64,000 nucleotides of DNA from Streptomyces sp. FIT100 (GTDB lineage Bacteria > Actinomycetota > Actinomycetes > Streptomycetales > Streptomycetaceae), in the NCBI RefSeq assembly GCF_024584805.1, contig NZ_CP075715.1:744001-808000 (forward strand), written 5' to 3'. Below are positions 3,820 through 40,744 of this stretch, one piece after another. The notes beneath the pieces are model-generated. The model searched no databases. It saw only the letters and a list, made by a program, of their open reading frames with translations, and was not told the origin of the DNA. The stretch's first letter is position 1. Each line of letters starts with the position of its first letter. The position numbers and the translations under genes were made by a program.

Positions 3820-4977
3820 TCAGCGGGGCGGTGCGGCCCGAAGGATCACGCCGACGGCGTCGTCGATCTGCCGGTCGGTGAGGTCGGCCCGCGCGGTGAG
3901 CCGGATCCGGGAGATGCCGTCCGGGACGGACGGGGGCCGGAAGCAGCCCACGGCCAGCCCGCCGGCCCGGCAGTCCGCGGCCCATCGCACGGCCGCCTCG
4001 GGCGACGGCGCCTGTACGGAGACGACCGCCGCGTCCGGGCGTGCCGCGGTCAGCCCGGCGTCCGTCAGCCGCTCGTACAGCGTGGTGGCGACGGTGCGCG
4101 CCCGCCCGGCGAGCTCCGGTTCCCGGCGCAGCAGCCGCAGACTCGCGAGTGCCGCGCCCGCGGCGGCCGGGGCGAGGCCGGTGTCGAAGATGAACGTGCG
4201 GGCGGCGTTGACGAGATGGTCGACGACCCGCGCCGGGCCGAGGACGGCACCGCCCTGGCTGCCGAGGGACTTGGAGAGGGTGAGCGTGGCCACGACACCC
4301 GTCGAGCCCGCGAGGCCCGCGGCGTGCAGCGCGCCCCGGCCGCCGTCGCCGAGCACCCCGAAGCCGTGCGCGTCGTCGACGACCAGTGCGGCGCCATGGG
4401 CGCCGCACACGTCGGCGAGGTCCGTGAGCGGAGCGGCGTCGCCGTCCACCGAGAAGACCGAGTCGCTGACGACGAGGGCGCGCCGTCCCGGATCGGCGTC
4501 GAGCGTCTTGCGTACGGCCTCGGGGTCGGCGTGCGGCACGACGGCCGTCTCGGCGCGGGAGAGCCGGCAGCCGTCGACGATGGACGCGTGGTTGCCCGCG
4601 TCGGAGACGATCAGGGAGCCATGGGTGCTCAGCGCCGTGAGGGCGGCGAGGTTGGCGGCGTACCCGGAGGAGAAGACCAGCGCGGCCTCGAAGCCGCAGA
4701 ACTCGGCGAGTTCGCCTTCGAGTTCGGTGTGCAGCTCGGTGGTGCCGGTGACGAGCCGGGAGCCGGTGGCGCCCGCGCCCCAGCGCAGGGCGGCCTCCGC
4801 CGCGGCCGCCGTGATCTCCGGCCGGCGGGTGAGGCCGAGGTAGTCGTTGCTCGCGAGATCGAGCAGTGCCGTGGCGGCGGGGCGGGGCCGCAGCGCGCGT
4901 ACGAGTCCGGCGTCCGCGCGCAGGCGCGCCGCTTCGGCGGTCCACTCGAAGGGATCCTGGGGCTGGGACTGCGACAT
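3820..4977 (-). CDS. bioF: 8-amino-7-oxononanoate synthase
   Basis: The 385-aa product is a fold-type I PLP enzyme of the alpha-oxoamine synthase family. It condenses pimeloyl thioester and alanine in the first committed step of the biotin ring pathway. Visible landmarks are GAGATGSR and GTTELHTELE (residues 67-88), the substrate loop SDAGNHASIVDG, the PLP-contacting DDAHGFG (201-207) and the Schiff-base lysine K236 in TLSKSLGSQGG. The ATG at 4977 was chosen for normal length and a GGA-type site. It is divergent from bioB across a 148-base shared control region. The next gene downstream is 440 bases away, so bioF appears monocistronic. Confidence 0.95.
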   Translation of the reverse strand: MSQSQPQDPFEWTAEAARLRADAGLVRALRPRPAATALLDLASNDYLGLTRRPEITAAAAEAALRWGAGATGSRLVTGTTELHTELEGELAEFCGFEAALVFSSGYAANLAALTALSTHGSLIVSDAGNHASIVDGCRLSRAETAVVPHADPEAVRKTLDADPGRRALVVSDSVFSVDGDAAPLTDLADVCGAHGAALVVDDAHGFGVLGDGGRGALHAAGLAGSTGVVATLTLSKSLGSQGGAVLGPARVVDHLVNAARTFIFDTGLAPAAAGAALASLRLLRREPELAGRARTVATTLYERLTDAGLTAARPDAAVVSVQAPSPEAAVRWAADCRAGGLAVGCFRPPSVPDGISRIRLTARADLTDRQIDDAVGVILRAAPPR

Positions 4978-5040
4978 GAGGGTGGTCCGGTCCTTTTGTA
5001 GGCAGCGCACAGACACTAGCCCGGGACAGCTGAGGTCAGA

Positions 5041-5056
5041 GTGTGGCCATGCACAC
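5041..5056. promoter_or_regulatory. Inverted repeat in the bioF-bioB divergent promoter region
   Basis: GTGTG-GCCATG-CACAC is an interrupted palindrome placed between the two divergent biotin genes, where a repressor would be expected. I do not recognise it as a BirA or BioQ box, so this is positional evidence only. Confidence 0.3.
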
Positions 5057-5125
5057 ACCCTGTTCGGCGCGTGTTGTCGAGTTCCTCCTTGGCCCGGGGG
5101 TGTCCGGTAAGCGAGGATCAGCGCC

Positions 5126-6337
5126 ATGGACCTCCTGAACACGCTGGTGGACAAGGGGCTGCGGCGTGAGCTGCCGTCCCGCGAAGAAGCGCTCGCCGTG
5201 CTGGCGACCTCCGACGACGAACTGCTCGAAGTGGTGGCCGCGGCCGGAAAGGTGCGCCGCCAGTGGTTCGGGCGGCGGGTGAAGCTCAACTACCTGGTCA
5301 ATCTGAAGTCCGGGCTGTGTCCCGAGGACTGCTCGTACTGTTCCCAGCGGCTCGGTTCCAAGGCCGACATCCTCAAGTACACCTGGCTGAAGCCGGACGA
5401 GGCGTCACAGGCGGCTGCCGCGGGGGTCGCGGGCGGCGCGAAGCGGGTCTGCCTCGTCGCGAGCGGCCGGGGTCCGACGGACCGGGACGTCGACCGGGTC
5501 TCGCAGACCATCGAGGCGATCAAGGAGCGGAACGAGGGCGTCGAGGTGTGTGCCTGCCTCGGGCTGCTCTCGGACGGCCAGGCGGAGCGGCTGCGCGAGG
5601 CGGGCGCGGACGCGTACAACCACAACCTCAACACGTCCGAGGGGACGTACGGGGACATCACGACCACCCACACGTACGCCGACCGGGTCGACACCGTGCA
5701 GAAGGCCCACGCCGCCGGTCTGTCGGCCTGCTCGGGTCTGATCGCGGGCATGGGCGAGAGCGACGAGGACCTGGTCGACGTCGTCTTCGCGCTGCGCGAG
5801 CTGGACCCGGACTCGGTGCCGGTGAACTTCCTCATCCCGTTCGAGGGCACCCCGCTCGCCAAGGAGTGGAACCTGACGCCGCAGCGCTGTCTGCGCATCC
5901 TCGCGATGGTCCGGTTCGTCTGCCCGGACGTGGAGGTGCGCATCGCGGGCGGGCGTGAGGTCCATCTGCGCGCGATGCAGCCGCTCGCGCTGCACCTCGC
6001 CAACTCGATCTTCCTCGGCGACTACCTCACCAGCGAGGGCCAGGCCGGCAAGGCCGACCTGGAGATGATCGCGGACGCCGGCTTCGAGGTGGAGGGAACG
6101 GAGACGACGACGCTGCCGGGGCACCGGGCGGACGCGGCGGCCGGCGGCGCGTGCGGCTCGCACTCCGGTGGCTGCGCACCGTGCGGCGACGGCGCATCCC
6201 AGGCCGTGGCCGAGGCCGGGCAAGAGGCCGGGCAAGAGGCCGGGCGAGGGGCCGGGCAAGAGGCGTCGGCCGCCCGTACGGATCTGGTGGCGGTCCGCCG
6301 CCGGGGTGCAGGGACGGACCTCGCGCCCAATGCGTGA
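5126..6337 (+). CDS. bioB: Biotin synthase, with long C-terminal tail
   Basis: The 403-aa radical SAM enzyme inserts sulfur into dethiobiotin. It has the CxxxCxxC cluster motif CPEDCSYC (C65, C69, C72), YNHNLNTS, and the usual TIM-barrel blocks up to about residue 325 ([14 protein letters not shown]). The remaining roughly 70 residues are an extension. It contains a cysteine-rich stretch ([11 protein letters not shown]) followed by short repeats [18 protein letters not shown], encoded by an 11-12 base tandem DNA repeat at about 6210-6262. The tail is absent from enterobacterial BioB and is probably not catalytic. The stop overlaps the bioA start by 8 bases, indicating translational coupling. 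Confidence 0.95.
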
Positions 6338-21379: not shown

Positions 21380-22933
21380 GTGCCTGAAATACGTCGACGC
21401 TTTGCCGTTGTGGCGAGCGTCATCGCGGCGGTAACCGCCTCCGGTGTGCTTACCGCGTCGCCCGCCAGTGCCGTCGCCGGTACGGCCGTCGCGGATAACG
21501 CTTACGCGTTCACCGCACGTCTCCAGATCGGCGACGACGAGGACACGATGCGCGCCTGTTCCGGCGCCCTTGTCGACGCCCAGTGGGTGTTGACCGCCGC
21601 GTCCTGCTTCACGGGCGGGCTCACCGAACTCGCCCCCGGCAGGCCGGCGGAGAAGACGGTCGCGACGATCGGCCGCGCTGATCTGACCGGCACCGACGGG
21701 CACGTCAGCGAGATCGTCGATCTCGTGCCGCGTGCCGGCCGGGACATGGTGATGGCCCGCCTGGCCTCCCCCGCCACCGGTATCACCCCGGTGACCGTGG
21801 CCACCATTCAGGCGACGCAAGGTGACACGCTCACGGTCGCCGGTTACGGCCGTACCAAGACGGAGTGGGCGCCGCTCAGGCTCCACACCGCCGCCTTTGC
21901 GGTCAACGCGGTCACCGACACCGAGGTGAACATCGCCGGCAAGACCGCGAACGACGCGATCTGCAAGGGCGACACCGGAGCCCCGCTCCTACGCGACCAC
22001 AACGGCACCCCCGAACTCGTCGGCGTCAACAGCCGCTCCTGGCAGGGCGGTTGCTTCGGCACCGACCCGGCCGAGACCCGCACCGACGCCGTGTCGGCGC
22101 GTGCGGACGATGTGGCCTCGTGGATCGGGCAGCTGCGTCTGGCGCCTCTGGTCGAGCAGGTCACCGACGTGGTGACCAGTGCCGATTTCAATGGTGACGG
22201 TCGTCAGGATGTTGCCGCGGTGCTCGCCGACGGTTCGCTGCACGCCTTCTACGGGCGCGTGGACGGCACCCTCCAGTACGGCCGCGACCTGTGGCGCGAC
22301 AAGGGCTGGAAGAGCATCAAGAAGATCATCGGTGGTGACTTCAACGGTGACGGGAAGGCCGACATCGCGGCCATCTCCGCCGCCGGGGTGCTGCTGCTCT
22401 ACCCGGGTACGAGCCATGACGGCAAGCTCGGCGACAACCGGCCCATGTGGACGGACAACAGCTGGAGCAGCGACCGGCCGGTCACCCGCTTCAAGGTCGA
22501 CTCCTCCGGCCGTGACGGTCTGGCCGTGCAGGCCGCCGACGGTGCGCTCTACGGCTACCCCAGCAACACTGACGGCGTTCTGACCGGTGCCCGGCTGAAC
22601 CTGTGGCACGACAAGTCGTGGACCAAGCGCCACATCGCCGCGGGCGACCTGACCGGCGACGGCTACGACGACATGGTCGCGGTCGCACCGGACGGGAAGC
22701 TGCACCTCTACCCCGGCACCGCCCAGCACGGGCTCGGCGCCGCACGTCAGATATGGCCCGACACCACCTGGCTGGGGATGAAGACCGTCCTGGCCGGTGA
22801 CGTCAACGGCGACGGCAAGGGCGACGTCATCGGCCGCGTGAACGCCGGTGGCCTGTACGGATACGCCGGCGACGGCACCGGAACCATCGCCCCCGGCCGC
22901 CTGATGTGGCCCACCATCACCTCGGCCAGCTGA
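21380..22933 (+). CDS. Secreted trypsin-like pseudoprotease with five FG-GAP repeats
   Basis: The 517-aa protein has a signal peptide and an S1-type domain. The usual TAAHC is TAASC (WVLTAASCFTGG) and the usual GDSGGP is GDTGAP, so both the catalytic His and Ser are replaced while the Asp motif RDMVMARL remains. Paired cysteines of the fold are kept. Residues about 255-515 form five FG-GAP/VCBS repeats, several with the calcium-binding loop DFNGDGxxD, giving part of a beta-propeller. GTG 21380 is preferred over an ATG at 21362 because AGGGA lies at correct spacing. It is probably an extracellular binding protein. It is tandem with a close paralogue. Confidence 0.85.
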   Translation: MPEIRRRFAVVASVIAAVTASGVLTASPASAVAGTAVADNAYAFTARLQIGDDEDTMRACSGALVDAQWVLTAASCFTGGLTELAPGRPAEKTVATIGRADLTGTDGHVSEIVDLVPRAGRDMVMARLASPATGITPVTVATIQATQGDTLTVAGYGRTKTEWAPLRLHTAAFAVNAVTDTEVNIAGKTANDAICKGDTGAPLLRDHNGTPELVGVNSRSWQGGCFGTDPAETRTDAVSARADDVASWIGQLRLAPLVEQVTDVVTSADFNGDGRQDVAAVLADGSLHAFYGRVDGTLQYGRDLWRDKGWKSIKKIIGGDFNGDGKADIAAISAAGVLLLYPGTSHDGKLGDNRPMWTDNSWSSDRPVTRFKVDSSGRDGLAVQAADGALYGYPSNTDGVLTGARLNLWHDKSWTKRHIAAGDLTGDGYDDMVAVAPDGKLHLYPGTAQHGLGAARQIWPDTTWLGMKTVLAGDVNGDGKGDVIGRVNAGGLYGYAGDGTGTIAPGRLMWPTITSAS

Positions 22934-22974
22934 CACCTCTTCGCCGTCTGGCCTGTATTTCCAAGGAATCCATC

Positions 22975-29931: not shown

Positions 29932-31593
29932 ATGACCGAAGTGCTCCTGCTCGTGGTGGCGGTGCTGCTCTGCCTCGCCTGTGGAGCGTTCGTCGCGGCG
30001 GAGTTCTCGCTCACCACCGTCGAGCGCACCGATCTGGAGCGCGCGGCGGAGCGCGGCGAGCGCGGGGCCGCGAGCGCCCTGAAGGCCGTCCGGGAGCTCA
30101 CCTTCCAGCTCTCCGGCGCGCAGCTCGGCATCACCGTCACCAATCTCGTCGTCGGCATGCTCGCCGAGCCGTCCATCGCCGTACTGCTCAGCGGGCCGGT
30201 CGAGGCGCTCGGCGCGTCCCCGCAGGTGGCCTCGTCGCTGGCGCTCGTCATCGGCACGGCCCTGTCGACCGTCGTACTGATGGTCATCGGCGAGCTGGTC
30301 CCCAAGAACTGGGCGATCTCGTCGCCGCTCGCGGTCGCGAAGGTCGTCGCGCCCCCGCAGCGCGTGTTCTCGGCGGCCTTCCGGCCGCTGATCGGGCACC
30401 TGAACAACACGGCCAACCGCATCCTGCGCCGTCTCGGCCTGGAGCCGACAGAGGAGCTGGCGTCCGCGCGCAGCCCGCAGGAGCTGGTCGCGCTGGCCCG
30501 CCACTCCGCCCGGGAGGGCGCGCTGGAGGCGGACACCGCCGACCTGTTCGTCCGTACCCTCGGCCTGGCCGGGCTGACCGCGGAGAATGTGATGACGCCC
30601 CGCGTCCAGGTCACCGCCCTCGACGCGCAGGCGACCGCCGAGGACGTCGCCAACGCCACCCGTGCCACGGGGCTCTCGCGCTTCCCCGTCTACCAGGGCA
30701 CCCTCGACGCCGTCGTCGGGATCGCGCACATCAAGGACGTCCTGGCCGTGCCGGCCGACCTGCGCCCGCGGCGCCCGGTCTCCGAGCTGATGCGGGAGCC
30801 GCTCCTGGTGCCCGAGACGCTGACCGTCGACCGGCTGCTCGACCGGCTCTCCGGCAAGCGGACGATGGCGGTCGTGATCGACGAGTACGGCGGGACGGCC
30901 GGGGTCGTCACGCTGGAGGACATCGTCGAGGAGGTCGTGGGCGAGGTCCGCGACGAACACGACCCGCACGAGACACCCGACCTGGCGCGCGCGGGCGAGG
31001 ACGCCGACGCCCGGGCCCTGTGGTCGGCCGACGGCGCCGCCCGCACCGACCAGCTGGAGGCGATCGGCCTCCGGGTCCCCGAGGGGCCCTACGAGACGCT
31101 CGCCGGCCTGATCGCGAGCGATCTCGGCCGGATCCCGGCCGTCGGCGACACCATCGAACTCACCGGCTGGCAGCTCGACGTCATCGACGCGTCGGGCCGG
31201 CGCGCGGCGCGGGTGCTGCTGCACGCGCCGCAGGCGTCGAGGGACGACGCCGTGGACGGCGACGCCGCCGCGCCCGCTCCCGGGCGCTTCCGCCGCGGAG
31301 GCCGCGGCGGAAGCGGCGGAAGCGGCGGAAGCGGCGGAAGCGGCGGCGAGTCCGGCGGCACCGACGATTCCGACAGCTCCGACAGCTCCGACAGCTCCGA
31401 CGACCCGAGCGGCTTTGACGAACCGGGCGATTCCGGAGCCTCCCAGGAATCCCGGAGCCCTCAGGATTCCCAGGATTCCCAGGATTCCCAGGGCTCTCGC
31501 GGGTCCCGTGGGTCCCATGGCCCGCGTCGCTCCCGTCGCTCCCGTCGCTCCGGTCGCTCCGGTCGCTCCGACGAGGGGAGGGCCGGACGATGA
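29932..31593 (+). CDS. CNNM/CorC (hemolysin-family) membrane protein with low-complexity tail
   Basis: The 553-aa protein has an N-terminal DUF21/CNNM membrane domain (three to four helices in residues 1-140, with AAEFSLTTVERTDLERAA and QLSGAQLGITVTNLVVGM). A CBS pair follows (about 205-325; NVMTPRVQVTAL, VVIDEYGGTAGVVTLEDIVEE), then a CorC_HlyC domain (to about 430). Such proteins are linked to Mg2+/Co2+ efflux. The last 110 residues are an extension of repeats: GGS units, DSS units, QDS/GSR units and basic SRRS/SGRS units. Such an extension is not typical of the family. GGAGGTGAACCG precedes the ATG. The stop overlaps the next gene by ATGA. Confidence 0.93.
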   Translation: MTEVLLLVVAVLLCLACGAFVAAEFSLTTVERTDLERAAERGERGAASALKAVRELTFQLSGAQLGITVTNLVVGMLAEPSIAVLLSGPVEALGASPQVASSLALVIGTALSTVVLMVIGELVPKNWAISSPLAVAKVVAPPQRVFSAAFRPLIGHLNNTANRILRRLGLEPTEELASARSPQELVALARHSAREGALEADTADLFVRTLGLAGLTAENVMTPRVQVTALDAQATAEDVANATRATGLSRFPVYQGTLDAVVGIAHIKDVLAVPADLRPRRPVSELMREPLLVPETLTVDRLLDRLSGKRTMAVVIDEYGGTAGVVTLEDIVEEVVGEVRDEHDPHETPDLARAGEDADARALWSADGAARTDQLEAIGLRVPEGPYETLAGLIASDLGRIPAVGDTIELTGWQLDVIDASGRRAARVLLHAPQASRDDAVDGDAAAPAPGRFRRGGRGGSGGSGGSGGSGGESGGTDDSDSSDSSDSSDDPSGFDEPGDSGASQESRSPQDSQDSQDSQGSRGSRGSHGPRRSRRSRRSGRSGRSDEGRAGR

Positions 31594-32695: not shown

Positions 32696-33505
32696 ATGGA
32701 GATGAATGCCACATACACCAGTTTTGTCGCGGTCGGCGACTCGTTCACCGAGGGCATGTCCGACCTGCTCCCGGACGGCTCGTACCGCGGTTGGGCCGAT
32801 CTCCTCGCGAGCCGGCTCGCGGCCCGTACCCCCGGCTTCCGGTACGCGAACCTCGCCGTGCGCGGCAAGCTCATCGGGCAGATCGTCGAGGAGCAGGTGG
32901 ACAACGCGTCCGCGATGAGGGCCGATGTGGTGACGCTGGTGGGCGGCCTCAACGACACGCTGCGCCCCAAGTGCGACATGGTCCGGGTGCGCGCGCTGCT
33001 GGAGGAGGCCGTGGAGCGGCTCGCGCCGTCCTGCGGACAGCTGGTGCTGATGCGCAGCCCGGGCCGCAACGGCCCGGTGATGGAGCGCTTCCGGCCGCGC
33101 ATGGAGGAGCTCTTCGCCCACATCGACGCGCTCGCGGCGCGGCACGGCGCCCTCGTCGTCGACCTGTACGGCGCCGAGGTGCTCGGCGACCAGCGGCTGT
33201 GGGACGTGGACCGGCTGCATCTGACCGCCGATGGGCACCGCAGGGTCGCCGAGGCGGTGTGGCAGACGCTGGGGCTTGCGGCCGAGGAGGACTGGCGGAC
33301 ACCGCTGCCGCCCGCCATGCGCCCCGGCTGGGCGGCGCGGCGGACGGCGGACGCGCGGTTCGCCCGGGAGCACCTGGTCCCCTGGATCGGACGCAGGCTC
33401 ACCGGCCGCTCATCGGGCGACGGCAGACCCGCCAAGCGCCCCGAGCTGCTGCCGTTCGGGCCCGTGGAGCCGGCGCTGCCGGACGGCGACAGCGTGGTCT
33501 CGTAG
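32696..33505 (+). CDS. SGNH/GDSL-type hydrolase
   Basis: The 269-aa protein has the SGNH blocks: FVAVGDSFTEG with the nucleophile Ser (block I), a Gly region (VRGKLIGQ), GGLND (block III Asn) and DRLHLTADGH (block V Asp-x-x-His). It lacks a signal peptide, so it is cytoplasmic. Such enzymes are esterases or deacylases of varied specificity. ATG 32696 is used; ATG 32702 is an alternative two codons later. The C-terminal 60 residues after RPGWAARR are basic and proline-rich, as in the streptomycete subgroup. Confidence 0.9.
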   Translation: MEMNATYTSFVAVGDSFTEGMSDLLPDGSYRGWADLLASRLAARTPGFRYANLAVRGKLIGQIVEEQVDNASAMRADVVTLVGGLNDTLRPKCDMVRVRALLEEAVERLAPSCGQLVLMRSPGRNGPVMERFRPRMEELFAHIDALAARHGALVVDLYGAEVLGDQRLWDVDRLHLTADGHRRVAEAVWQTLGLAAEEDWRTPLPPAMRPGWAARRTADARFAREHLVPWIGRRLTGRSSGDGRPAKRPELLPFGPVEPALPDGDSVVS

Positions 33506-33588
33506 CAACCGGGGCGGGGCGCTGACCTGCGTAAACCGCCAGCAGAAGCAGGGCAACGCTGCCAACTCCGGGGATACCCTCAAACGCC

Positions 33589-34240
33589 CTAGGTGTATTG
33601 GCCCGGAGGGTTGTTGACACGGCTGATGGGTGGCTGGCCGTCGAGTGCGGTGTGGCAGCGGTGGTGGTTGGAAGGCCTGGGCCCGCTGCCGGTATGCGGC
33701 GGCGGCGTACTGGCGCCCGTCGCGCAGGATCTCGCTGTAGGCCACGCGGGAGCGGTCGGCGGCGGCGGAGTGGATATAGCTGTAGCCGATCACTGGCTTG
33801 CAGCCCGTGCGCTGGTCGGTGGTGTGCTGGCGGTTGCGCTCGCCTGCCGCTCTGCCGACCGTGCGCCGGCCGCCGTCGGGAATGTTGCCCAGTTCCTTGA
33901 TGCCAACGTGGACCAGCTCACCGGACCGGGCCCGTTCGTGGCGGCGGATGGGTTCACCGGTGGGCCGGTCGAACCAGGCCAGGCGGTTCAGGCCCTGCCC
34001 GGCCAGGACGCGGTGGACGGTGGAGCGGCCAGGCCAGGATGGGCGATGCACGCCGGTCCGAGCTTGCGGGCCCGGCACAGCTCGCAGACCCGGGCTGCGA
34101 CCTTCCTTCGCATCCTGGACTACGCGGGTGCGGACATGTTCAACGACGGTGGAAGAGTTGTCCGGCGTGCCGAGGCGCGGTCTCGATGTCTCACAGGGGC
34201 AATCGCAGCCCGCCCTACGGTGACGTTGCGTGACGGGGGA
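33589..34240 (-). pseudogene. IS481-family transposase remnant
   Basis: The 3' end is intact in one frame (HTALDGQPPISRVNN... GQYT, stop at 33589-33591), and a large middle part is recognisable (STVHRVLAGQGLNRLAWFDRPTGEPIRRHERARSGELVHVGIKELGNIPDGG, GYSYIHSA, AYSEIL). Three defects are visible. The 5' third is spread over frames. The first catalytic Asp is Gly (ELVHVGIKELG for VHVDIKKLG). An internal deletion joins RAQAF to the HHRxHTAL region. It is dead. It borders the RiPP cluster on its left. Confidence 0.85.
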
Positions 34241-34640
34241 GTTTTGCCGGGGTGGTCCGGGGTGGTCTGCGGGTCGTGATGACGCAGCAAGGACGTGGCC
34301 TCCGCAGCAGGCAGTTGCGTGCACCGACTGGCTCTTCGAATGCCTGCGTGGGCGAACGTGGCACGCTGCTCGGTTGGCTCCTCCAGCTCGAATCCCTGTC
34401 GGGCCTGCAGATTCGGCGAGTCTGCCACCGACGCTCGCGGCTTTCCAAGTAGGCACCGTAACATGTCAGTTGATCGGCAAAAATCGGTGCATGCCTTGCA
34501 TGTGACGGCCTTGACGGAGTGTCCGATTCGCTACAACAATTGCTGCCTGATCCTGATCTGCCAACTACGTGGCGACGAGGAAGGGTTGGCTGCGGGCAAG
34601 GCAAGAGTGCGAGTCGGACCGTCGAGCATCAAGAGGCAAT
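34241..34640. other. Region between the IS481 remnant and the radical SAM gene
   Basis: No gene is supported. It should contain the promoter of the RiPP operon. A short piece at about 34376-34405 vaguely resembles a tRNA T-arm but does not fold as one. Confidence 0.4.
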
Positions 34641-36869
34641 GTGAGACAACTCTTCCTGTATCCGATCACTGGCCTCTACAACGAGTGCCACGATGTCGAC
34701 CACGCGGCCCTCCGGGACGCGGTGCCGCCGACTGCCGGCGACCCACGCGCGCTGGCCGACGTCAACAACCTCTGGTGGCAGCATGTTTTGGAGCCGGAGG
34801 CTGTGCGCGCAGCCGTGGGCATGCTCGACCGTCTGATGCGTCCTGGCGACGCGCATCCGGCCGCATGGGAGGCCATCGTCGCGGCGCCCGAGAAGTTCGT
34901 GGACGAAGTCGTCAGGGCGCCACGGGCACTGGTGGATCTGGGGGCGGGACCGCGGGCCGCGTTCCGGGCGCTGGAGACCCTTCAGCTCTACACGGACATC
35001 CACTCGGCCACGATCGGCCGCCCCTTCGAGCTGTCGCTTCAGGAAGGCTATGTCGTCAACGAGCTCTCCTCGCTTGAGCTCGTCCAGTCGGCGCTCGTCC
35101 CGGGCTCCAATCCCTATCTGCCGTTCCTGAGGGAATTCGTCTTCCCCGTCATAGAGGACAGCCCCCCGGACATTGCCTGGATCGTGGGCCGCATCAAGAT
35201 GTCGACCATGGCCATGGCCATGAGGATCAAGGAAGTCAATCCGTCCTGTCACGTGTCCGTGGTGGGGCACTCGAGCGAGTACTACTCACTCAACAAGATC
35301 ACCAAGTATCTCCGGACCAACAGCCAGCTCTTCAGTGAGATCGACAGCATCGTCCTCGACGACTTCGACAACACACCCCGGCTGCTGCGCGAAGCCCTCG
35401 AAGGTGGCGACCCGCTGGAGTCGGTCCCCAACCTGATGTACCGCGAGGGCGATCGCATCCACCAGACCGGCTACGTGGTGGCCGACCGGGCGTTGGACGC
35501 CGACCTGCGCAGTGCGCCGCCACGCGACGAGTACGCCGATATGACGGCACCGAGCCTCTCCGTGGCGGAGACACGACTGTGGCCGGCCGCTCAGTGCTAC
35601 TGGAACAACTGCAACTTCTGTGCGATCAACCGCCGTTACAACACCCTTCCGCGCAATAGCTTCTCGCTGGAGCACGAACGGGCGGAGCTGATGCTGCGCC
35701 TCGCGGAGCAGGGGACGTCGTACCTGTGGTCCGTTGACGAGGCCATCCCCCCGGTCAACCTCGGGATCCTCGCCCAGGAGCTGATCGCCCTGGGCTCGCC
35801 GCTGGTCTGGGAGACCCGCAGCAAGATCGACCGCAACTTCTCGCCCGAGATCTGCACAGACCTCGGCAAGTCTGGTCTGCGGGAGATCCGGCTGGGATTC
35901 GAGTCCGCGAGTCCTCGTGTTCTGGCACTGATGGGCAAGTACCCCGAGGGTTGGTCACTCGACCTGGTCGAGAAGATCGTCTCGCGTTTTCACGCCGCCG
36001 GTGTCTCGGTGCATTTCCCCACCATCGTCGGGTTCCCCGGCGAGACTCCGGAAGAGCGCCGTGAGACGTACGAGTTCCTCGAGCACCTGGTATCCCAGTA
36101 CCCCAGTGTCACCTTCAACGTGAACATTCTCGGCTTCGACGTCGCCAGCAAACTCTTCGAGGACTACGAGGAGTTCGGCGTCACCACCCTGAGGTGGCCG
36201 ACGCCGACGAAGTACTTCCTGGGGAACCTGATCGATTGGGACTGCGCCGAAACGCCCTTCGACTACGGCCGGCTGGACCAGGAACGCAACGAGTTCATGC
36301 GGCAGGTCCTCTACCCTTGGATGCCCGCATCAGCCAGCATCCCCCCGTACATCTTCTACCGTCTGACCGAGACCTCCCGTGCCACGATGGTGTGGAAGTC
36401 CCAGCGAGCGGCGACCGGGCGATGGCGTGAACCGGCGCTGTCCGCGGACCTGTCACAGGAGATCCGGACCAGCCCCTCGCTGGTGGCCATGGGGCCTTTC
36501 AAGAAGAGCTCGTACGCCACCGAGGAACACTACGCCTGCTATGTCTGGCAGACCCATCATGCCTTCGAGTGCGACGGGCCCACCGCCGGCCTGTTGGAGT
36601 TCCTCACTGAGCCCCACTCCCTCGCCGAAGCGGCCCAGGCGACGGGGCTGACGCCCGAGGAGACGGGCGCGGTCGTCAGGGCGCTCTCGGCCATCGGCGC
36701 GGTTGTCACGGCATCCACCGACGACGTCCCGGTGAGCCTGCCCGTCTTCGCACCCGCTCCCCGACGCTGGCACGCCCTTGCGGGGCCGGCTCCGGCCCCA
36801 CGCAAGCGCATCAGCGCCCAACGCAAGCAGGACCTCACGCTCACACTGGGGAGGACATCGTCGACATGA
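34641..36869 (+). CDS. Radical SAM enzyme with cobalamin-binding-like domain (RiPP maturase candidate)
   Basis: The 742-aa protein starts at GTG 34641, behind AGAGG. Residues about 170-276 resemble a B12-binding Rossmann domain of cobalamin radical SAM enzymes (DIAWIVGRIKMSTMAMAMRIKE, VSVVGHSSEYYS, IDSIVLDDFDNTP, SVPNLMYREGDRI). The cluster motif CYWNNCNFC (C319, C324, C327) is CX4CX2C, not the usual CX3CX2C. It recalls the CWWxxxxxCxFC motif of 'RiPP maturation radical SAM protein 1'. Barrel motifs follow (VWETRSKIDRN, LREIRLGFESASPRVL, VHFPTIVGFPGETPEE). The last 100 residues include a small winged-helix-like unit (LAEAAQATGLTPEETGAVVRAL). Its stop overlaps the precursor ATG. I infer that it modifies the glycine core. 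Confidence 0.85.
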   Translation: MRQLFLYPITGLYNECHDVDHAALRDAVPPTAGDPRALADVNNLWWQHVLEPEAVRAAVGMLDRLMRPGDAHPAAWEAIVAAPEKFVDEVVRAPRALVDLGAGPRAAFRALETLQLYTDIHSATIGRPFELSLQEGYVVNELSSLELVQSALVPGSNPYLPFLREFVFPVIEDSPPDIAWIVGRIKMSTMAMAMRIKEVNPSCHVSVVGHSSEYYSLNKITKYLRTNSQLFSEIDSIVLDDFDNTPRLLREALEGGDPLESVPNLMYREGDRIHQTGYVVADRALDADLRSAPPRDEYADMTAPSLSVAETRLWPAAQCYWNNCNFCAINRRYNTLPRNSFSLEHERAELMLRLAEQGTSYLWSVDEAIPPVNLGILAQELIALGSPLVWETRSKIDRNFSPEICTDLGKSGLREIRLGFESASPRVLALMGKYPEGWSLDLVEKIVSRFHAAGVSVHFPTIVGFPGETPEERRETYEFLEHLVSQYPSVTFNVNILGFDVASKLFEDYEEFGVTTLRWPTPTKYFLGNLIDWDCAETPFDYGRLDQERNEFMRQVLYPWMPASASIPPYIFYRLTETSRATMVWKSQRAATGRWREPALSADLSQEIRTSPSLVAMGPFKKSSYATEEHYACYVWQTHHAFECDGPTAGLLEFLTEPHSLAEAAQATGLTPEETGAVVRALSAIGAVVTASTDDVPVSLPVFAPAPRRWHALAGPAPAPRKRISAQRKQDLTLTLGRTSST

Positions 36870-37126
36870 TCAGAATCATGGCAGGAACTCTCACGCCGCT
36901 GCCCGCTACGGAGCACGAGGAAGCAGCCGAGCCCGACATCCGCCGTCACGTGCGGCTGCTTGGCTCCCCACTCGACGGCGGCCCTCCGCAGGCCGACGCC
37001 GACTGGAGCCAGGTGCAGAAGTACGCGATCAGCATGCGTGGTGGGGGCGGCGGCGGTGGTGGAGGCGGTGGCGGGGGAGGAGGAGGCGGGGGTGGTGGCG
37101 GTGGTGGAGGCGGCGGCGGTTGGTAG
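36866..37126 (+). CDS. Candidate RiPP precursor with a (Gly)27-Trp core
   Basis: The 86-aa peptide starts within the radical SAM stop codon (ATGA). Residues 1-58 form a plausible leader (acidic EHEEAAEPDIRRHVRLLG, then WSQVQKYAISMR). Residues 59-85 are 27 consecutive glycines and residue 86 is Trp, followed by TAG. The glycine codons are a mixture of all four synonyms (10 GGC, 9 GGT, 5 GGA, 3 GGG), so the tract is not a simple replication-slippage run and is probably selected at the protein level. Position, size and coupling fit a precursor whose C-terminal core is modified by the radical SAM and 2OG enzymes. I know of no characterised product of this kind. Confidence 0.8.
   Translation: MIRIMAGTLTPLPATEHEEAAEPDIRRHVRLLGSPLDGGPPQADADWSQVQKYAISMRGGGGGGGGGGGGGGGGGGGGGGGGGGGW
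37076..37086 (+). promoter_or_regulatory. Ribosome binding site formed by glycine codons of the precursor
   Basis: GGAGGAGGAGG, read as Gly-Gly-Gly in the precursor frame, lies 5-8 bases before the GTG codons at 37092 and 37095 in the next gene's frame. It is the best Shine-Dalgarno sequence in the cluster. Confidence 0.6.
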
Positions 37127-37760
37127 TCCCAGGGCGGCGGCAGCGCGGCACTGCCCTGAGCATCCGCTTCCGGAGCCGGCTCGCACCTGGATCGAGGACT
37201 TCGTAGCGGCACCGCACCCGCAGCTGGGCCGTCCGGGGGCCATCTGTCCCAACCTCCCCTTCATTCTCGCGCGACGGCAGCTGTACTGGGGCTCCGTCGA
37301 CTACGCCGCGGTCGGGAGCGGTGCGATGCCACCGGCCCGCACGCTGACCGTCCTGTTCAGGCAGGCGCTGGCCGAAGCGGCCCGGATCATCGCGGAGTCC
37401 GGTGACACGTACCGGACCGCTGTGGTCTGGGTGATCGAGTCGGCGCCGCCGCACACCCACCGGTCCGTGATCGAACCCGCCTTCCAGGCGATCCGGAGCG
37501 AAAGCATTGCGGCGGGGATCATGGTCGGCTGCTTCCATCCCTACCGCCGCCGGCGCAGCAGAGTGCAGCCCGAGCTGGCGACGATGAGATCACCGGTCCC
37601 GATGATTGCCATGCGCCGTCTGCTGCGCGGTGACCTCGATTCGGTGAGGGATGAACCGGACTCGAGGCGGGCCTTTGACGAGTACTTCACTGCTCACGAC
37701 CGAGATCGCCGATCACGAGCAAGGCCGCCGCTCACGGCTGAGAGCACCGATGATGAATGA
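37095..37760 (+). CDS. DUF6875-like protein encoded in the RiPP cluster
   Basis: The roughly 221-aa protein has a conserved-looking core TWIEDFVAAPHPQLGRPGAICPNLPFILARRQLYWGSVD (about residues 29-68) with a Cys-Pro motif, then a helix (LFRQALAEAARIIAES) and VVWVIES. The C-terminus is basic. It resembles, from memory, proteins labelled DUF6875 that accompany biosynthetic genes; its biochemical role is unknown. The start is one of several GTG codons (37092, 37095, 37101, 37104) inside the glycine tract of the precursor; 37095 is chosen for spacing to GGAGG. Its 3' end overlaps the convergent hydrolase by 29 bases. Confidence 0.65.
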   Translation: MAVVEAAAVGSPRAAAARHCPEHPLPEPARTWIEDFVAAPHPQLGRPGAICPNLPFILARRQLYWGSVDYAAVGSGAMPPARTLTVLFRQALAEAARIIAESGDTYRTAVVWVIESAPPHTHRSVIEPAFQAIRSESIAAGIMVGCFHPYRRRRSRVQPELATMRSPVPMIAMRRLLRGDLDSVRDEPDSRRAFDEYFTAHDRDRRSRARPPLTAESTDDE

Positions 37761-38640
37761 GGTCAAAGAACCGGGCGGAGTTCTCGTGGAAGACGCGCCT
37801 CAGGTCACCGTCCTTGACGTCCAGGGCCGCCAGCTTCGTCCGAGCGTCGAGCGCGAGGAGGAACCCCGGATCCGATGGCCCCGTCGCACCCCGAAAAACC
37901 ACCCGGCCGCTGCGTACCGACCAGGACCGGTCTCCGGAGACAACGAGCCTGTCGCCGTAGCCCAGTTCGACCAACTCCTTCACCAAGTTCATCCGGGCCG
38001 TGTCGGCGGTGCTCGTCAGGGGCGTGATGTCCGTGACGCAGAGCAGAGCTCCCTCGTCGAGGCAGGCTCGCATGGATCGCAGCACCTCGTCGAAGGGCTT
38101 TCGTCGCCGCCCTTTCAGCTCCAGTTCGGGGTGGCTGAGCATCACGCGGTGCGGCTCCACGCCCAGCGAGCGCAGAAGACGCAGGTGCTCAAGGGCTCCG
38201 CTCGGCGAGTGGGTGACGATAGGCAGCCCGGTGCTTCGGTGAACCGCCGCCACAGCCCGGAAGGCGTTGCCCTCGAAATCCGACAGGGTTCCTTGATGGG
38301 CCGCGACCTTCACAGCGGCCACGTGAACACGTCCCCGCAGACGGGCCCGCTTCCGCAGAAGCCGTTGTTCCAGCCGCGTGGCCGACAACTCCCTGACCGG
38401 TCGACTGACCGAATGGGAAAGGTAGTACCCCACACAGGCGTGGACGCGCACGGGAACGTCGCTGATCAGATCCGCATACCGGAGGGGATCGATGTAAGCC
38501 GTCAGGTCAACGATGTCCGTGACCCCGGCGCGTGCGGCGCGCGACAGCTCCTCACGCAGGAACTCCGCGGTCAACGCCTCCCTGCCACCCGGAAACCGGG
38601 AGAACACGTGTTCATGCGGCAGGATGACCGGAGATTCCAT
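37732..38640 (-). CDS. Phosphotriesterase-like metal-dependent hydrolase
   Basis: The 302-aa protein keeps the metal ligands of the phosphotriesterase/amidohydrolase superfamily: HEH (H9, H11), the carbamylated lysine K111 in VKVAAHQG, H144 in VTHSPSG, H170 in LSHPELE and D237 in VSGDRSW. Members hydrolyse lactones, esters or peptides using a binuclear zinc centre. It is divergent from the oxygenase gene and convergent with the DUF6875-like gene. Within a peptide cluster it might act on a modified peptide or on the released leader, but that is inference. The start is uncertain because no clear ribosome binding site precedes ATG 38640 or the two ATGs just upstream. Confidence 0.8.
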   Translation of the reverse strand: MESPVILPHEHVFSRFPGGREALTAEFLREELSRAARAGVTDIVDLTAYIDPLRYADLISDVPVRVHACVGYYLSHSVSRPVRELSATRLEQRLLRKRARLRGRVHVAAVKVAAHQGTLSDFEGNAFRAVAAVHRSTGLPIVTHSPSGALEHLRLLRSLGVEPHRVMLSHPELELKGRRRKPFDEVLRSMRACLDEGALLCVTDITPLTSTADTARMNLVKELVELGYGDRLVVSGDRSWSVRSGRVVFRGATGPSDPGFLLALDARTKLAALDVKDGDLRRVFHENSARFFDLIHHRCSQP

Positions 38641-38727
38641 GCGGGGCATCATACCGATGCGGTTCTTCGGCAAAGCACGGCAAGGACGCCACCCCGACCG
38701 CTGACAAAACTGCCGATGGGATGATCG

Positions 38728-39666
38728 ATGGCCAAGGTCCCGGTGATCGACCTGGACGCCGATCCCGAACTGGAGGGACGCAGAGTCTGGGGAATCCTGC
38801 GCGACGAAGGGTACTTCTACCTCACCGGATCCAAAGTCGCCGACGTGGACCTCGAAAAACTGGTGGCGGTGGCGGAGGAATTCTTCCGTATGCCGGTCAG
38901 CGAGAAAATGAAGTTCCACATCAGCGGATCAGCCTGCCACCGAGGCTACTACCCGCCTGGCGAAGAAGGACCTGCTGATGGAATACCCGACCTCAAAGAA
39001 GGGTACGACTCCGGCCTGTTCGAGATCCGATCCGGTCGCGACGATCACACCACCTCGTCGCCGGGCTGCTCTCCTCCCGTACCCGGTTTTCTGGCCACAG
39101 TGAACAGCTACCACTCGGCCATGACTGATATCGCGCACGCCCTGTCCGTGGTCGTCGCCCACGCCATAGGCATGCCTGACCGGTTCTTCCTCGAACGTTC
39201 TCAGAATCCGCCCAATCAGCTGCGCCTGCTGCACTATCCGGCAAGCCCCACCCCGCGCCAGGGAGTCGGAACCCACAAAGACTTCGAGTGCTTCACACTG
39301 CTGGCCTCCACCGGACCGGGACTCGAAGTCGAACGGTCGGACGGCGCCTGGATCCTGGTCCCACCCCGCCAGGACACGCTGGTCGTCACCACCGGGGAGA
39401 TGCTCGAAATCCTTACCAACGGTGCCCTCCTCGCCGCACGCCACAGAGTGGGGTGGATCCGCGAAGACAGATATTCCTTCCCGTACTTCTTCAGCCTTGA
39501 CCGGAATATCCTGGTGGAGCCGCTCGATCGATTCGTTGGCCCCGAAGGCACCCACTACGCATCGCTCACCGCCGGAGACCATCTCCAGGCCCGGACATCT
39601 CAGGTCTTCCGGTATCTGAGGAACAGAGAACAGGGCAAGCGCGATCACTTGCAGCAGCAGTCCTGA
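38728..39666 (+). CDS. 2-oxoglutarate/Fe(II)-dependent oxygenase (isopenicillin N synthase family)
   Basis: The 312-aa protein has the family N-terminus (VPVIDLDADP, GYFYLTG) and the iron triad H183-x-D185 (GTHKDFE) and H239 (ARHRVGW). The 2OG/substrate clamp R248-x-S250 (DRYSFPYFF) follows. Such enzymes hydroxylate, desaturate or cyclise substrates. Its position as the last gene of the putative RiPP locus suggests that it acts on the radical SAM product, for example by hydroxylating or oxidising glycine residues. The ATG lies closely behind GGGATGAT, so initiation is plausible but not strong. The hydrolase gene is divergent from it. Confidence 0.88.
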   Translation: MAKVPVIDLDADPELEGRRVWGILRDEGYFYLTGSKVADVDLEKLVAVAEEFFRMPVSEKMKFHISGSACHRGYYPPGEEGPADGIPDLKEGYDSGLFEIRSGRDDHTTSSPGCSPPVPGFLATVNSYHSAMTDIAHALSVVVAHAIGMPDRFFLERSQNPPNQLRLLHYPASPTPRQGVGTHKDFECFTLLASTGPGLEVERSDGAWILVPPRQDTLVVTTGEMLEILTNGALLAARHRVGWIREDRYSFPYFFSLDRNILVEPLDRFVGPEGTHYASLTAGDHLQARTSQVFRYLRNREQGKRDHLQQQS

Positions 39667-39924
39667 GAGGTCGTCGTCAACGGCCTGATCGCCGGCCGCG
39701 CCCACAGCCCGAGGGACATCGTCGATCTCATGCGCCATGTCGGCCTCGACCCGGACCAGTTCGACCTCAAGCGCAGCGCGTCGCCCAGCGCAAGCAGGCC
39801 GCCCTGGTGCCGCACAGGACTCGGCCTTCGTCGAGTGGCGGCGATCAGTTGACCGGGCGCGACGTCCGTCCTGTTGCAGTCGGCCACGGTGCAGTGAAAG
39901 TAGACCTCCCCCTCGGACCCCCAC

Positions 39925-39964
39925 CAGATGGTGGCCGTATCGATCAGATGGTGGCCGTATCGAT
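39925..39964 (+). repeat. Perfect 20-base tandem duplication
   Basis: CAGATGGTGGCCGTATCGAT occurs twice head to tail without mismatch, suggesting a recent duplication in non-coding DNA. Confidence 0.9.
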
Positions 39965-40244
39965 CTTGATGCTCACGGTCACGTTGTTGCGAACCTGGTG
40001 GATGACCTTGGTCGACGGGACGCTGTTCGTTGTGTCGCCGCAGTGGTAAGAGGCCGGGGGGACCCACGCCAACGTGCAGTTCAGAGAGCCAGACGTGCGA
40101 AACGCGCTCCAAGGCGAGCTCTCTGGGGGGTGCTCACAACCCGTCCTTGAGGTTGCCCGTGCCCGTGCCGCCGCTGATCAGATACGAGACCATCGGGTGT
40201 GCTCGGGGTACCCCCACGGGTGTGTCTACGGGGTCTGGCCTGCG

Positions 40245-40296
40245 CGTATGACGCCTGCCCCGGTCGTGTCCGACGCGGCGGACGGGGCGTCATACG
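40245..40296. repeat. Inverted repeat with 11-bp arms
   Basis: CGTATGACGCC (40245-40255) pairs with GGCGTCATACG (40286-40296) across a 30-base loop. It could be a terminator or an operator. No adjacent gene makes the choice clear. Confidence 0.5.
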
Positions 40297-40744
40297 GCGG
40301 GACCTTGAGCGCCATGCTCGAAGGGTGCAACGGCCTGCGGGTGCAGGCCCGTGTCCCGCATCCAGCGGTAGCCGTGCGCGAGGAACGCGACCGCGTGTCG
40401 GCCAGCGTCCGACGCGGTCATGACAGTGCTCATGAGCACTGCGAGATCGTCCGACAGGGGCTGGTCAACGCGGACGGGCATCCGGCGTCGCGCGGTACCA
40501 GCGTGCGGCGCGCGTCCCACGCTTCGAGGTGGGCGAAGCCCTTGCCGTCCCGGCCGACGCGGGACGGGTGGATGCCCTTCGGATCAAGGCGCCGTTCGGT
40601 GGTTGCACACCGGGCGGCGCCGCCGTCTGACACGCGTCTCGCAGACGTGAGGCGTGAGACGGGCCCGGGCGCCCCTGACCTGCGGTTTTGTCACCGCTAT
40701 GGACGATTCGTTGCAGTGATGGACGGAAGGTAAACTCCGTTCAC

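Follow-up and report, generated by a model that had tools for sequence, protein, structure and literature searches.

GRRM systems pair a radical S-adenosylmethionine (SAM) enzyme of the SPASM type with a Gly-rich substrate that is composed of repeats instead of a homopolymer. Microcin B17 has a Gly-rich core, a pentapeptide-repeat immunity protein and a YcaO-type azole synthetase acting on Cys and Ser residues. Members of the rSAM_ocin_1 family (TIGR03975) are named C-methyltransferases of ribosomally synthesized and post-translationally modified peptides (RiPPs); to our knowledge, a poly-Gly core is not a feature of this family. MgmA (PDB 9ccb), the glutamine C2-methylase of methyl-coenzyme M reductase (MCR), adds a methyl group to C2 of a glutamine within a ribosomally made protein chain and is reported to be built of a Rossmann domain, a barrel and a C-terminal domain (PMC11796369). 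In this work, we describe a locus in a 64,000-nucleotide stretch of Streptomyces sp. FIT100 (contig NZ_CP075715.1, positions 744,001 to 808,000; hereafter the window), in which a radical SAM enzyme is followed by a short peptide ending in 27 consecutive Gly residues and a Trp, and which probably stands for a type of ribosomal natural product not described before.

The locus shares with the GRRM systems the combination of a radical SAM enzyme with a Gly-rich substrate and differs from them in its homopolymeric tract, as opposed to SPASM enzymes and repeats. A Gly-rich core, together with pentapeptide-repeat genes found beside the precursors of its relatives in Bacillota, recalls microcin B17; however, the G27-W core holds neither Cys nor Ser, so the system does not qualify as an azole peptide of the microcin B17 type, and no YcaO protein was found in the subset of open reading frames (ORFs) that was scanned. 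The rSAM_ocin_1 profile aligns to residues 186-518 of the enzyme, i.e., to the end of the Rossmann domain and the barrel, but the score of 42.5 lies far below the cut-off of 281.85, and the enzyme is not a member. Judged from sequence, the system is a RiPP system by its architecture, and its new elements would be the homopolymer core and the enzyme family. We know of no RiPP core in which one residue is repeated up to 27 times, and a search of open-access papers, which did not extend to bioRxiv preprints, turned up no account of a RiPP precursor with a poly-Gly tract.

The enzyme gene (34641-36869, plus strand) encodes 742 amino acids (aa) from an ATG at 34641, while its longest frame, opening with a GTG at 34569, would give 766 aa. 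The Radical_SAM domain (PF04055, 1.5e-12) scores 48.5 bits against a curated cut-off of 29.5, and the three Cys residues of the CX4CX2C cluster motif (C319, C324 and C327; 35595-35621, plus strand) are invariant in all 24 aligned family members; with both features in its sequence, the protein is a member of the radical SAM superfamily. The stop codon of this gene overlaps as ATGA with the start of an 86-aa precursor ORF (36866-37126, plus strand), immediately upstream of which lies the stretch GGGGAGGA. The precursor can be divided into a putative leader of 58 aa (36866-37039, plus strand) and a putative core of 27 Gly codons and one Trp codon (37040-37123, plus strand), and its C-terminus reads ISMR-G27-W. 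An earlier note on this DNA had described the two ORFs, their overlap and the Gly tract in the same way, and it was also right about the mixed codons of the tract (GGC 10, GGT 9, GGA 5 and GGG 3). Among six-frame ORFs of at least 20 aa in the window, this tract is the sole run of at least eight Gly residues, and the precursor is the only one of 525 window ORFs of 20-250 aa with at least 12 Gly in the last 35 residues. The peptide is presumably made and processed into a product.

The pairing of enzyme and precursor is conserved across genomes. A profile built from 38 homologues was run on 84,980 species genomes and yielded seven loci, six of which (L002-L007) carry full-size family members; the seventh, L008, matched with 25% identity over 171 residues only and was dropped prior to counting. 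One more locus, L015, was found among 397 genomes of the family to which the L006 genome belongs. Thus, eight loci, the window included, were counted, and a Gly-rich short ORF adjoins or lies near the enzyme gene in seven of them, in four phyla (Actinomycetota, Pseudomonadota, Thermodesulfobacteriota and Bacillota; L015 was assigned through the family in which it was found). On this sequence evidence, a short precursor ORF and a modifying enzyme are conserved as a pair, which is the architecture of RiPP systems. In the window, L002, L004, L006, L007 and L015, the ORF begins at most 4 nt ahead of the enzyme gene's end and at most 33 nt beyond it; in L005, the two are separated by a gene with a transposase domain (PF05598), and an identical second copy of the ORF stands on the other side of the enzyme gene. 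The remaining locus, L003 (Clostridiales), shows no Gly-rich ORF in 12.5 kb, its contig ending approximately 1.6 kb upstream of its phosphotriesterase gene, and was scored as a miss. A search for enzyme relatives beside Gly-rich short ORFs, as proposed in the earlier note, therefore found what that note expected, including a second precursor with a Gly run and a terminal Trp in another phylum (L002), while the outcome that would have refuted the note, homologues consistently deprived of a Gly-rich neighbour, was not observed; in the available DNA, such a neighbour is missing from L003 only.

The tails of these precursors read G17-W in L002 (Hyphomicrobiaceae), G12-R in L005 (Lachnospiraceae) and G17-R in L006 (Blautia), whereas those of L007 and L015 (both Bacillota) are Gly-rich, interrupted and closed by Lys; the tail of L004 (Solidesulfovibrio) runs for nine Gly up to the contig end. 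A search with the L006 leader returned one relative, the 48-aa database protein P0121, a variant form of the L005/L006 precursors that ends in G11-R. Five of the seven tails are pure Gly (counting the one cut by the contig end), and the complete homopolymers span 11-27 residues. Gly-richness is the only tail feature common to all seven, since the last residue may be Trp, Arg or Lys (that of L004 lies beyond its contig). Across the other seven loci, 6 of 1080 ORFs with lengths of 20-250 aa have at least 12 Gly in the last 35 residues, and all six are precursors described here (the truncated ORF of L004 has too few Gly for this filter); across 21 control loci, 4 of 819 ORFs do, none of which is homopolymeric.

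The enzyme family is rare. In a midpoint-rooted tree of 46 enzymes, in which L015, L007 and L004 were flagged as long branches, the loci with Gly-rich ORFs fall into widely separated clades (L007 with L015, L005 with L006, L004, L002 and the window). Wider genome samples contained the enzyme in 1/392, 2/397, 1/337, 1/196, 1/119, 1/246 and 1/148 genomes, each count including the centre genome. The closest homologue, 84% identical, comes from Streptomyces sp. AK02-01A. Neither a phage collection nor viral contigs gave an enzyme match, and 17 plasmid records, none of which covered more than 51% of the query and whose identities were 25-31%, were excluded from the family.

The AlphaFold model of the enzyme (pLDDT 92.6) predicts an N-terminal Rossmann domain of the B12-binding type, followed by a radical SAM barrel and, at the C-terminus, a domain similar to a RiPP recognition element (RRE). 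The B12-like domain claimed in the earlier note is thus borne out as a predicted fold, preceding the barrel and matching MgmA, TsrM, OxsB and CysS. In Foldseek searches with the whole enzyme, MgmA was the best match (E 2.1e-13), followed by TsrM and OxsB, all three placed above AprD4. MgmA, whose matched chain has 417 residues, differs in that its target is one glutamine of a protein; the enzyme scores 24.9 against the TIGR04014 cut-off of 360. TsrM (PDB 6wte, 6wtf) is 14% identical to the enzyme over the aligned part. The two best NCBIfam matches, PhpK and rSAM_ocin_1, are methyltransferase models, and both lie far below their cut-offs; for the PhpK P-methyltransferases (TIGR04479), the score is 46.5 against 600, so the enzyme is not a member. 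Among six relatives scanned, the best scores were 86 for TIGR04479 (L007) and 58.8 for TIGR03975 (L003).

The winged-helix domain at the C-terminus (36438-36740, plus strand; PqqD-type) finds its best structural matches among RREs; TigE (PDB 8vpo), a radical SAM enzyme whose RRE is N-terminal instead of C-terminal, is also its best PDB sequence match, a weak one (E 0.21). A Pfam scan of this domain for PqqD or other RRE families gave no match common to two of the 15 rows. By its predicted fold, then, a leader recognition domain is present in the enzyme; it was absent from the earlier note and, as a modelled feature, adds to the support for the RiPP interpretation made there. Three longer members of the enzyme family (P0075, P0078 and P0110; 880-908 aa) carry methyltransferase domains, according to precomputed Pfam annotation, fused behind the RRE-like region.

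Three further genes lie downstream of the precursor, and Pfam confirms the families assigned to them in the earlier note; their arrangement as a simple continuation does not hold, as one is on the minus strand and another seems to begin inside the Gly tract. The latter encodes a DUF6875 protein (37104-37760, plus strand; PF21780, 2.1e-23) that scores 83.8 bits against a family cut-off of 24.5 and keeps the R-x-G-x-x-C-P motif, a candidate heme-binding motif, which is invariant in 11 aligned DUF6875 proteins. Its start is uncertain: upstream of the domain, the nearest of the usual start codons is a GTG within the Gly tract, in another frame, where the gene appears to begin. One paper describes DUF6875 as a heme-binding, tryptophan-oxidising family (PMC13307353). 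A DUF6875 gene adjoins both Trp-ended precursors (window and L002). Because a whole-genome search of the seven other genomes (L002-L007 and L015) matched that of L002 only, DUF6875 occurs in none of the four genomes with Arg- or Lys-ended tails, nor in those of L003 and L004. Among 61 relatives of the window genome, eight have a DUF6875 gene, the window genome being one of them. The minus-strand gene encodes a phosphotriesterase-family hydrolase (PTE; approximately 37732-38652, start estimated; PF02126, 2.2e-17), which is also present in the L002 and L003 clusters; all three products keep the HxH motif (as HEH). A 2-oxoglutarate (2OG)-Fe(II) oxygenase gene follows (38728-39666, plus strand; PF03171 6.4e-17, PF14226 2.8e-14) and had no evident counterpart near the enzyme in the other loci, where part of the neighbouring genes was scanned.

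The whole cluster lies on an insertion of about 7.2 kb (33463-40728) between a GDSL hydrolase gene and purB, as seen when the purB loci of 11 genomes of the genus were compared. The GDSL gene ends at most 0.3 kb upstream of purB in seven of these relatives and about 1.2-1.3 kb from it in two (L019 and L026), and the fetched purB flank of the last two (L025 and L028) gave no GDSL match; in the window, the homologous ends at 33.46 and 40.73 kb are some 7.2 kb apart. Because of this closeness in relatives, the lower G+C content of the cluster (0.654, vs. 0.711 in the window) and the presence of the enzyme in only the window's own genome out of 392 of the genus, it appears that the cluster was acquired as a compact unit, at a site that itself varies to some extent. 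Elsewhere in the window, a CNNM/CBS transporter-like protein (29932-31593) has a low-complexity C-terminal tail of GGS, DSS and related repeats, and a tRNA-Sec gene (22862-22936, minus strand) is the sole tRNA gene found.

We propose, at about even chances, that the enzyme modifies glycines of a leader-bound precursor, most probably by cobalamin-dependent C-methylation of alpha-carbons, before the neighbouring enzymes act. In the order that we infer, the predicted RRE domain would bind the leader, and the barrel would modify the alpha-carbons of the Gly tract. Where the precursor ends in Trp, oxidation of the C-terminal indole by DUF6875 would come next, with further oxidation by the 2OG-Fe(II) oxygenase and cutting or trimming of the product by the PTE-type hydrolase. 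B12-type methyl transfer appears the likeliest chemistry because the best NCBIfam models and the closest structures, MgmA and TsrM, are methyltransferases. Modification of the glycines is further suggested by the pairing in seven of eight loci, the shared Gly-richness, the separated clades, the RRE-type fold, the co-occurrence of DUF6875 with terminal Trp and the compact insertion. A more specific and doubtful version takes poly-Gly as a blank ribosomal template: single or double methylation of alpha-carbons along the tract would yield a helix of Ala (possibly D-Ala) or of aminoisobutyric acid, a ribosomal, peptaibol-like homopolymer with an oxidised-Trp cap.

Several results weigh against the proposal of Gly modification. 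The leader (WSQVQKYAISMR), whose conservation was anticipated in the earlier note, returned no relative when used as a query. The uninterrupted Gly run with a terminal Trp, another element of that note, stands for G27-W and G17-W; Trp is last in these two tails only, and the L007 and L015 tails are interrupted. Other matches of the enzyme (MiaB/RimO, HpnJ, AprD4 and OxsB) give no pointer to C-methylation, and AprD4 and OxsB catalyse other chemistry. Finally, AprD4, a counterpart without B12, shares the fold.

The chief rival explanation regards poly-Gly as a flexible tether: the leader would dock on the RRE, a TsrM-like radical SAM enzyme and DUF6875 would alter the C-terminal residue only, and the product would be released as a small molecule or a capped peptide. 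This is a serious possibility, if a minority one. TsrM, a Trp methyltransferase that acts on free tryptophan, is among the best fold matches, the restriction of DUF6875 to Trp-ended precursors fits a reaction at that end, and both the range of tract lengths and the interruptions in two relatives would be tolerable for a spacer. However, the same enzyme family would need to accept Trp, Arg and Lys alike as terminal residues, and it is the end residue that changes while Gly-richness stays. Moreover, a spacer should freely accept Ser or Ala, yet most tails are pure Gly.

Unlikely, in our estimation, is a B12-independent enzyme that uses a 5'-deoxyadenosyl radical to form Gly-Gly or Gly-Trp cross-links or to rearrange the glycines through backbone splicing. 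AprD4 has the top structural Z-score (17.2), effectively tied with TsrM (16.7), and the alignment shows an invariant H/E/Y/K motif in the region where B12-binding Rossmann domains usually have a GG-type loop; given this shared fold and this motif, the enzyme may bind B12 or do without it. The Foldseek ranking of three B12 enzymes above AprD4 points the other way, and the pure Arg-ended tails (L005, L006 and P0121) offer no aromatic or Cys partner for cross-linking. As to the tract being an assembly artefact or a low-complexity ORF that follows an unrelated radical SAM gene by chance, GC-rich genomes do yield some Gly-rich small ORFs, but the control-locus counts, the mixed codons and the independent counterparts in six other genomes, A+T-rich Bacillota among them, make this very improbable and contradict the artefact that the earlier note had named as one of its refuting outcomes.

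Other neighbours differ among the loci. A pentapeptide-repeat protein gene faces the precursor gene in L005 (11334-12794), L006 (10226-11701), L007 (10145-11614) and L015 (3796-4989). This conserved protein recalls the immunity proteins of gyrase-targeting peptides; NCBIfam models for HalA, MfpA and Qnr matched the L006 copy weakly, none of them reaching its cut-off, and PADLOC returned no match for it or for the four window proteins submitted. Because a phage-integrase family recombinase gene lies near the enzyme gene in L004 (840-1838), L005 (4643-5566), L006 (11838-12758) and L015 (526-1452), mobility of the cassette is suggested. In L005 (5916-12794), the radical SAM gene stands inside a mirror-image duplication, with a copy of the same precursor ORF and a pentapeptide-repeat gene on each side. 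The locus also holds the transposase-domain gene and 90 N, and the arrangement reflects either a true rearrangement or an error of scaffolding. In L003, another radical SAM gene (4608-5750), this one encoding a SPASM domain, follows the family enzyme and gives PADLOC hits to viperin models (pVip, 7.7e-17), after which carrier-protein-like and transporter-like ORFs were recognized by eye.

The alpha-carbon of Gly belongs to the only residue without a side chain to hinder a radical enzyme. Should the glycines indeed be rewritten, a single enzyme would open the way to homopolymers built from residues outside the normal repertoire of the ribosome, and the enzyme, the precursor and the candidate Trp oxidase would form a small unit that could be expressed directly.

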